Virus record (IMG/VR): IMGVR_UViG_3300042564_002756
Coordinates: 1-64,000 of that record
Source of the DNA: a virus
Length of the DNA: 64,000 bases
Strand: one strand, 5' to 3'
The notes beneath the pieces were generated by a model, which saw only the letters and a list, made by a program, of their open reading frames with translations, did not search any database and was not told the DNA's origin. Made by a program: the position numbers and the translations under genes. Shown piece by piece: positions 58,589-60,495 of this stretch (position 1 is its first letter; every line of letters starts with the position of its first letter).

Positions 58589-58617
58589 AATATATACTCA
58601 TTCATTTGGTTTGTCAA
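58589..58617 (-). promoter_or_regulatory. Early promoter for 58340-dNMP kinase unit
   Basis: TTGACA-17-TATATT, within the C-terminal end of the RuvC-like gene. Confidence 0.65.
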
Positions 58618-59164
58618 CCATTTTGTTGAACCCAAGTTTTGCTATATAGTAAGCATCAACTATGTCAGAGACTGGGTTCCATATTTTCTCGTTCATTATG
58701 TCGAGTGTCTTTCGAATGTCGACATTTGTTTCTTCTAGAAAACATTCATACAAACGTTCTTTATTTGAATTTCCCTTTCCCGTGGCGTGTTTCTTTATTT
58801 CAGATGGCGCAAAAACAGAAAATGGTATTCCATCTTTCCATAATTTATATTTAAGAAGACCAGTGTTTTCGGCAATCTGAAAGACTCTACCTACTGCATT
58901 ATATGCATAACCTTCAATGAAGCATTTTTCTGCTTTATTTTCCATAATAATACGAGAAGACCAACCTGATATATTATCATATCTGTGAGCATCCGAATCA
59001 TATTTTTCGTATTCAGTCCCAAAGAACTGCCCAGAAAAAACAATCCATTTTGGTTTTGGGGAAAGATAATAAAACTTACAATTCTTGACATCCCACGTGT
59101 CACCATCGTGAACACAAATAGATGGACTTGTTAAACTATAATCAATACCAGCAATAATAGTCAT
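58598..59164 (-). CDS. RuvC-like Holliday junction resolvase
   Basis: 188 residues. RNase H fold: IAGIDYSLTSPS (Asp 8), CFIEGYAYNA (Glu 84), AENTGLLKYKLW, and VSDIVDAYYIAKLG (Asp 167, Asp 170), the full RuvC acidic set. It is predicted to resolve branched recombination/replication DNA before packaging. Its ribosome-binding site and start codon lie in a hairpin (59163-59197). Confidence 0.75.
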   Translation of the reverse strand: MTIIAGIDYSLTSPSICVHDGDTWDVKNCKFYYLSPKPKWIVFSGQFFGTEYEKYDSDAHRYDNISGWSSRIIMENKAEKCFIEGYAYNAVGRVFQIAENTGLLKYKLWKDGIPFSVFAPSEIKKHATGKGNSNKERLYECFLEETNVDIRKTLDIMNEKIWNPVSDIVDAYYIAKLGFNKMVDKPNE

Positions 59165-59197
59165 AAATACCTCTACATTTTCTATAGAGGTATTTAT
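59163..59197 (-). promoter_or_regulatory. RBS-sequestering hairpin at resolvase start, with late-type octamer
   Basis: On the minus strand ATAAATACCTCTA (59197-59185) pairs perfectly with TAGAGGTATTTAT (59175-59163), 13 bp, nine-base loop. The 3' arm contains the AGAGGT ribosome-binding site and the first two bases of the ATG. AATAAATA (59198-59191), one mismatch from the late consensus, lies in the 5' arm. Confidence 0.65.
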
Positions 59198-59205
59198 TTC
59201 ATTAC

Positions 59206-59397
59206 TTACATGTTGTCAGAATACCGCTTCATTTGTTCTCGTGCTTCTTCCAAGTAATTAGAAGCACCACCGACTCCACCAGTTTCATCAAACCAGACAA
59301 AGACACCTTCATCATATTGATAGATATGACTTTCAATTACAATGGGATATTTTGGTTTGGCAAGATATTCGGTATTATCATAATATTCCATAGTCAA
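59206..59397 (-). CDS. Small hypothetical protein
   Basis: 63 residues (TMEYYDNTEYLAKPKYPIVI; VWFDETGGVGGASNYL). Acidic, beta-rich. No family. ATGA overlap with the upstream gene. Confidence 0.55.
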   Translation of the reverse strand: MTMEYYDNTEYLAKPKYPIVIESHIYQYDEGVFVWFDETGGVGGASNYLEEAREQMKRYSDNM

Positions 59398-59696: not shown

Positions 59697-59992
59697 GTCA
59701 ATGGTTTCAATTTGAAGTCGGGAATTTGATAAGTGTAAATCTGCATTAACATACTGACCTTGTATAGATCTTGATTCAATCTACCTTCTAGATAATCCAC
59801 AAGATCTATAGTTGAGTTTGTATCTACAAGATGCATATCAAAATCAACTTCAAGAGCTTCAGATATTGTACAATCCAAATCAATCATAATTTCTACAATA
59901 CTTTGTTCATATGAACAAATAGTGACGTGAGTTTTATAATAAACCGATTCTAGTAAATTGTCAATAATTGATTTAGAATGGTTGGTCACCAT
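59693..59992 (-). CDS. Small hypothetical protein with internal promoter
   Basis: 99 residues from ATG 59992; GTG 59998 adds two. THVTICSYEQSIVEIMIDLD and a helical C-terminus. A consensus promoter (59937-59965) lies inside its 5' part, so an alternative start at ATG ~59890 (MIDLDCTISEALE) would give a 65-residue product. Confidence 0.5.
   Translation of the reverse strand: MVTNHSKSIIDNLLESVYYKTHVTICSYEQSIVEIMIDLDCTISEALEVDFDMHLVDTNSTIDLVDYLEGRLNQDLYKVSMLMQIYTYQIPDFKLKPLT
59937..59965 (-). promoter_or_regulatory. Early promoter, upstream-half-site class
   Basis: TTGACA-17-TATTAT with GAATCGGT in the spacer, inside the 59693 gene. Drives its 3' part and the genes to the left. Confidence 0.6.
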
Positions 59993-60224
59993 ACCCACCG
60001 ATCGTATTTTCTACTTCTTTTACTAAATCTTCATAACCACCAATGTATCTATCATCCCACCATATCTGCGGTACTGTTTTTACACTAGGTAATTTTACTT
60101 TCATATCGTTCAGATTCTTGTCATCATCTGTGTCTTTCCATTCATATCTGAGACTATATCGTTCCGCAAGTCGTTTTGCTCGGATACACCAACCACATCT
60201 TGAATGGCCATAAATTGTAATCAT
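59973..60224 (-). CDS. Glutaredoxin (NrdC-like)
   Basis: 83 residues from ATG 60224 (ITIYGHSRCGWC); an upstream in-frame start at 60260 would lie inside the preceding gene. Active site CGWC at about residues 10-13, then TVPQIWWDDRYIGGYEDL (the cis-Pro and GGYxD motif). Reductant for ribonucleotide reductase or the phage redox pool. Confidence 0.82.
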   Translation of the reverse strand: MITIYGHSRCGWCIRAKRLAERYSLRYEWKDTDDDKNLNDMKVKLPSVKTVPQIWWDDRYIGGYEDLVKEVENTIGGYGDQPF

Positions 60225-60457
60225 TTCTTTAAATCCTTTCTTGTAAACCAATAACTCCAAGAGTGTAGACAGTGATGTGGATCAAACCAAAATATGGAAT
60301 CAATTAACAATACTAAATTAAACTTACCTTCTCTTTTTCGTTGGTAGTTTCGTGCGCTGAAACTTTGATTGCTATAACCACCAAGAATTACGTTTAATAA
60401 TATCGAAAATGCTATAAATATTCGCTGAAAATATTTCTTTATTTTTATTGGTTCCAT
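60221..60457 (-). CDS. Small membrane protein
   Basis: 78 residues. One hydrophobic span (IFIAFSILLNVILGGY), then basic residues and a Trp/His-rich C-terminus (DPHHCLHSWSYWF). Conserved-looking in T4-like phages. ATGA overlap with glutaredoxin. Confidence 0.6.
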   Translation of the reverse strand: MEPIKIKKYFQRIFIAFSILLNVILGGYSNQSFSARNYQRKREGKFNLVLLIDSIFWFDPHHCLHSWSYWFTRKDLKK

Positions 60458-60495
60458 GGAATAACTCCTTCATAATGCCATGGTGTATTTATTCC
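60458..60495 (-). promoter_or_regulatory. Inverted repeat with late-type octamer before membrane-protein gene
   Basis: GGAATAA (60495-60489) and TTATTCC (60464-60458) flank the ribosome-binding site, seven-base arms; AATAAATA (60493-60486) overlaps the 5' arm. Same layout as at 59163 but weaker. Confidence 0.35.

Follow-up and report, generated by a model that had tools for sequence, protein, structure and literature searches.

A predicted hairpin carrying a late-promoter box at the start site of a RuvC-like resolvase gene in a T4-like phage

The ruvC-like gene and its leader

The window analysed here covers the initial 64 kb of a T4-like virus record of 137,360 bp. The following minus-strand features make up the ruvC-like locus.

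59206..59397 (-): upstream co-directional ORF of 63 aa, ending 41 nt before ruvC; putative source of read-through transcripts
59191..59198 (-): late-promoter box AATAAATA (-13 to -6), with the predicted +1 at 59185 by the T4 rule
59163..59197 (-): RNA hairpin burying the Shine-Dalgarno (SD) sequence and the AU of the AUG; 13 perfect pairs (15 pairs and -18.5 kcal/mol in the minimum free energy fold)
59185..59197 (-): 5' arm AUAAAUACCUCUA, of which a late transcript with its start at 59185 would keep only the last base
59163..59175 (-): 3' arm UAGAGGUAUUUAU, carrying the SD together with the AU of the start codon
59170..59173 (-): SD sequence GAGG, 5 nt upstream of the ATG, read from the sequence
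58598..59164 (-): ruvC-like Holliday-junction resolvase gene, 188 aa; phrog_159 (E 5.6e-31), PF02075 above cut-off

The preliminary description of this DNA had named the gene product a RuvC-like resolvase, and the matches to phrog_159 and PF02075 bear this out. In an alignment of 16 homologues, the acidic residues E84, D167, and D170 were invariant, and the first Asp lay within a GIDYS motif. On the basis of the profile match and the acidic residues, the 188-aa protein was assigned to the phage RuvC-like resolvases (phrog_159). No match to T4 gp49 or to phrog_423 was obtained in the whole 137-kb record by a search that detected the T4 positive control; judged by homology, endonuclease VII does not appear to be encoded in this record.

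The leader hairpin, whose minus-strand sequence is AATAAATACCTCTATAGAAAATGTAGAGGTATTTATG, consists of two arms of 13 nt with 100% complementarity and a loop of 9 nt. Among the short-range repeats listed for the window, no perfect inverted repeat with separate arms is longer. The perfect 13-bp stem reported earlier was thus found again, with its coordinates correct to within one base. It had also been claimed that the stem pairs the ribosome-binding site and the start codon. This holds for the SD and for the A and U of the AUG; the G lies just outside the stem (ATG at 59164-59162). In RNA folding, the hairpin had a z score of -8.1 against dinucleotide shuffles, and none of 200 shuffles was as stable. 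When the transcript was cut at 59185, the remaining fold amounted to only -0.5 kcal/mol.

Late-promoter box and predicted translational switch

In T4, the late box TATAAATA spans -13 to -6 (PMC1524935). The AATAAATA of the ruvC leader sits in the 5' arm of the hairpin, and the predicted +1, 6 nt past the box, falls by the T4 spacing rule exactly on the last base of that arm, at the position near which a late start had been proposed. In the same phage, TATAAATA occurs 20-60 nt upstream of the major capsid, scaffold, head protease, and tail sheath genes, and AATAAATA also precedes the tail tube gene. Since structural genes carry such boxes, the one before ruvC resembles the late promoters of the phage, in agreement with the earlier late-promoter-like reading. 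It is placed such that initiation at the predicted +1 would remove the 5' arm.

To quantify the effect on the start site, we calculated the opening cost, defined as the free energy needed to free positions -18 to +3 around the start codon, at 37 °C and with short leaders. The method recovered the known I-TevII case of T4 (13.0 to 0.4 kcal/mol). The opening cost of the ruvC start site decreased from 19.2 kcal/mol in read-through RNA to 2.5 kcal/mol in RNA beginning at +1, a drop of 16.8 kcal/mol. Among 31 late boxes (NATAAATA) with a called gene no more than 90 nt away in the whole record, a drop of more than 10 kcal/mol was observed for only two genes, ruvC and an HNH homing endonuclease gene (17.8 kcal/mol), and the opening cost of structural genes behind late boxes was hardly altered. 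The same two genes had the most deeply buried starts among the 224 called genes of the record, with the HNH endonuclease first and ruvC second; these 224 are our own gene calls, some of which may be false. In the HNH homing endonuclease gene (99480-100328(-), corresponding to L026:16480-17328), a hairpin with TATAAATA in its loop sequesters the start, and the cost changes from 19.9 to 2.1 kcal/mol. By these predictions, the genome thus has two genes with the device, ruvC and this endonuclease gene. Smaller predicted switches were seen behind TATAAATA for 127387-127728(-), encoding a DUF1127 protein (13.0 to 3.2 kcal/mol), and for 131771-132781(-) (11.2 to 3.5 kcal/mol).

In the modelled ruvC read-through RNA, the SD and part of the start codon are predicted to be paired, and the hairpin is very probably a cis-acting translational lock that late transcription opens. 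Early and middle transcripts that cross the minus-strand nucleotide-metabolism genes would carry both arms, pairing the ruvC SD and start codon and excluding the ribosome. After the onset of replication, T4-type late transcription would let RNA polymerase initiate at the AATAAATA inside the 5' arm, giving an mRNA that begins at about 59185, lacks the 5' arm, and has its SD free. The anatomy, the predicted energy switch, the covariation described below, and the matching anatomy at T4 gene 49 are shown here, and from them we infer the late 5' end, the repression before it, and a physiological reason: the resolvase would be made only late, when branched replicating DNA needs resolving for packaging.

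Several observations speak against such a lock. Neither gp55 (the late sigma factor) nor gp33 was detected in the 137-kb record, which is a fragment. gp55 was also not found in an overlapping, likewise incomplete contig that extends the record by 16 kb (L126); it is present in another ruvC contig. The ruvC box has A at -13, a base that 9 of 50 listed T4 late promoters share and that is frequent among related phages (PMC2988020, PMC1524935). A ribosome finishing the upstream ORF, whose stop is at 59206, could mask part of the 5' arm. Lastly, many ruvC homologues (those of Mosig, pf16, K471, and P10VF, and entire clades) do without a hairpin of this kind, which means that the lock is dispensable.

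Conservation of the stem and distribution among RuvC phages

To examine conservation, IMG/VR ruvC loci related to the gene of the window were collected, 70 distinct leaders were kept, and 501 other genes of the same contigs, delimited by simple gene calling, served as controls. An opening cost of at least 12 kcal/mol was observed for 26 of the 70 ruvC leaders and 11 of the 501 controls (Fisher p 6e-18). When the leader also had to contain ATAAATA, 23 ruvC leaders and 3 controls remained. Because a MAFFT alignment of the leaders placed the stems of subclades in differing registers, pairs were not counted, and arms were instead swapped by permutation among the 30 leaders with a box 15-36 nt from the start. 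The leaders' own arms paired at a mean of -11.5 kcal/mol, compared with -7.9 (sd 0.43) for permuted arms, and none of 5000 permutations was as low. When the promoter part was omitted, the values were -7.6 and -5.3 kcal/mol, respectively. The ruvC stem of L058, TAAATAGTACC/GGTACTATTTA, is an example of extreme divergence that retains little beyond the promoter letters. With the stems identified only through Watson-Crick matches, 19 of their 22 non-Watson-Crick positions were G-U, an excess with p 4e-4 even if half of the substitutions were G-U. The predominance of G-U points to RNA and argues against a DNA cruciform. Within these sequence comparisons, the covariation and the tolerance of G-U pairs demonstrate that the RNA stem is under selection; in relatives it is maintained by compensatory change. 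This covariation evidence comes from uncultivated phages; T4 and LIMEstone1 are cultivated examples.

The same data bear on other readings of the inverted repeat. It would be quite improbable that the repeat acts at the DNA level, as a small cruciform or operator that the resolvase binds to regulate itself. The product is by family a junction-cutting enzyme, and I-TevI, which represses its own late promoter (PMC2988022), offers a precedent for self-repression. However, the G-U positions are tolerated in RNA and not in DNA, and the same anatomy precedes endolysin and homing endonuclease genes. Slightly less probable still is that the repeat serves the upstream operon as an intrinsic terminator. 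Although the hairpin was listed by a terminator scan, just three G-C pairs were scored, the tail GACTATTATT lies inside the coding region, the stem ends within the start codon, and the 5' arm has a conserved promoter box. The G-U pattern, the few G-C pairs, and the tail in the coding region thus disfavour the cruciform and terminator readings. Some pairing is to be expected by chance where an A/T-rich late-promoter box forming part of the 5' arm stands opposite an SD and a UAUUU leader. Such an origin of the whole stem is nevertheless hardly credible, as permuted arms pair much worse, also without the promoter part, and pairing of this kind is absent from other late genes that have the same box.

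The hairpin was mapped onto a quick maximum-likelihood tree built from 84 RuvC proteins. In the clade of the window (30 rows, SH-aLRT 95), 25 rows were scored as hairpin, and 4 rows had the box with weaker scores. The Ackermannviridae phages LIMEstone1, May, and AG3 formed a separate hairpin group with hairpin-free rows in between, and the hairpin label required about 10 changes on the tree. The ruvC leaders of these three phages resemble that of the window in having TAAATA in the 5' arm of a hairpin of about 14 to 15 bp before a homologous ruvC, and differ from it in stem sequence, in a spacing of about 38 nt, and in their separate place in the ruvC tree. When 67 LIMEstone1 genes were ranked by start-site cost, ruvC came first (19.7 to 5.2 kcal/mol) and the N-acetylmuramidase endolysin gene second (L039:33452-34246(-); 18.5 to 4.2 kcal/mol), both with TAAATA in the 5' arm; the endolysin hairpin is arranged as described for T4 gene e. 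In the LIMEstone1 record, the TAAATA upstream of ruvC is annotated as a putative late promoter; a hairpin is not mentioned in the text of the corresponding paper. A search of 14 ruvC records for gp49 (phrog_423) gave no match in any of them and detected the T4 positive control; phrog_423 was used because PF02945 was silent even in controls and hence uninformative.

The ruvC starts of DLP6, TSW001, PhiW-14, and Kuja (L021, L023, L031, and L034) were buried in hairpins of 14-16 kcal/mol, which in DLP6, TSW001, and PhiW-14 directly follow a terminator-like hairpin. No TAAATA box was found next to the hairpin in these four phages, and they were not counted as members of the device.

In 12 rows of a neighbouring ruvC clade, TAAATA was located 2-7 nt before the called start, mostly at exactly 5 nt, a spacing that would place +1 on the A of the AUG (L076, L077, L084, L094, L096, and L098). 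In L082 and L087, it is the second of two ATGs that has the 5-nt spacing. This TAAATA-to-ATG spacing recurs at other genes of these phages, in L127-L132 (G005). The positions of these boxes suggest leaderless late mRNA in the sister ruvC clade as a second route to late-only translation.

T4 gene 49 and the origin of the arrangement

In T4 e, soc, 49, I-TevI, and segB and in Aeh1 mobE, a late promoter lies in a hairpin, and the start is hidden in the longer early or middle RNAs (PMC3014915, PMC2988022). Given the precedents of e, soc, 49, and I-TevI, the mechanism itself is already known, and the RuvC-type resolvase is a new member of it; no earlier description of the device for RuvC-type resolvases was found in the open-access literature. 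The closest parallel, T4 gene 49, had been pointed out in the preliminary description and was confirmed in anatomy: its leader, AATAATAAATACCCTTATCTATTTAAGGTAAGGGTTTATTATG, forms a start-site hairpin whose 5' arm holds AATAAATA and whose 3' arm holds the SD and start region. The distance from box to ATG is 29 nt in T4 gene 49 and 26 nt in the ruvC gene of the window, and the predicted opening costs are 17.0 to 3.4 and 19.2 to 2.5 kcal/mol, respectively. The gene 49 product does the same biochemical job as the RuvC of the window. In contrast, gene 49 encodes endonuclease VII instead of RuvC, and its stem sequence is unlike that of the window outside the promoter box and the SD. According to the literature, the regulation by the gene 49 leader has been studied in T4 only. 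T4 e, soc, I-TevI/II/III, and segB and Aeh1 mobE, several of which were tested experimentally, likewise have the late promoter in a hairpin and serve other gene functions; the HNH endonuclease gene of the present phage is arranged alike.

Endonuclease VII and RuvC are unrelated families, and there was no sequence match between T4 gp49 and this record. The device probably arose more than once. The proposal of convergence made earlier is likely in view of two separated ruvC lineages and T4 gene 49, and the patchy occurrence of the hairpin within RuvC favours repeated origin. The alternative is inheritance: an ancestral T4-type leader, older than either enzyme, would have been kept while endonuclease VII and RuvC replaced one another as the coding region behind it. 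The two leaders share the layout AATAAATACC-stem-GG-ATG, and gp49, present in T4, was not found in the ruvC records searched. In addition, T4 and the window each have a thioredoxin/glutaredoxin gene a few genes ahead of the resolvase gene (NrdC and 59973-60260, respectively; 28% identity, E 8e-6), a shared neighbourhood that would fit an old leader outliving its enzyme. This descent is nonetheless rather unlikely, considering that the stems differ outside the promoter and SD, that the intervening genes have no clear homology between T4 and the window, that LIMEstone1 ruvC adjoins gp33/gp32, and that ruvC homologues of several clades have no hairpin, with its many changes on the tree. For the preferred reading of repeated origin, a broader form is about evenly balanced between true and false: selection across T4-like phages would favour late-only resolvase translation regardless of which enzyme is used, endonuclease VII and RuvC (the latter in at least two lineages) would have gained the hairpin independently, and a further RuvC clade would have reached the same end through leaderless late mRNA.

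From the few cases in T4, the comparison derives a testable comparative rule on which genes have to stay unexpressed early on. A resolvase, a lysis enzyme, and homing endonucleases recur among them, enzymes that could harm replicating DNA or the cell if made prematurely.

A weaker hairpin was also noted in the window at the following feature.

60486..60493 (-): AATAAATA upstream of a phrog_3342 gene (60221-60457(-))

The start of this small phrog_3342 protein lies in very strong hairpins in L016:4242-4478 (28 kcal/mol) and L017:2226-2555 (23 kcal/mol), and the L016 hairpin contains ATAAATA. At the end of the record, a uvsX-like gene (134517-136904(-)) is seemingly interrupted by intein-like and endonuclease-like ORFs, as judged by eye from the translations.
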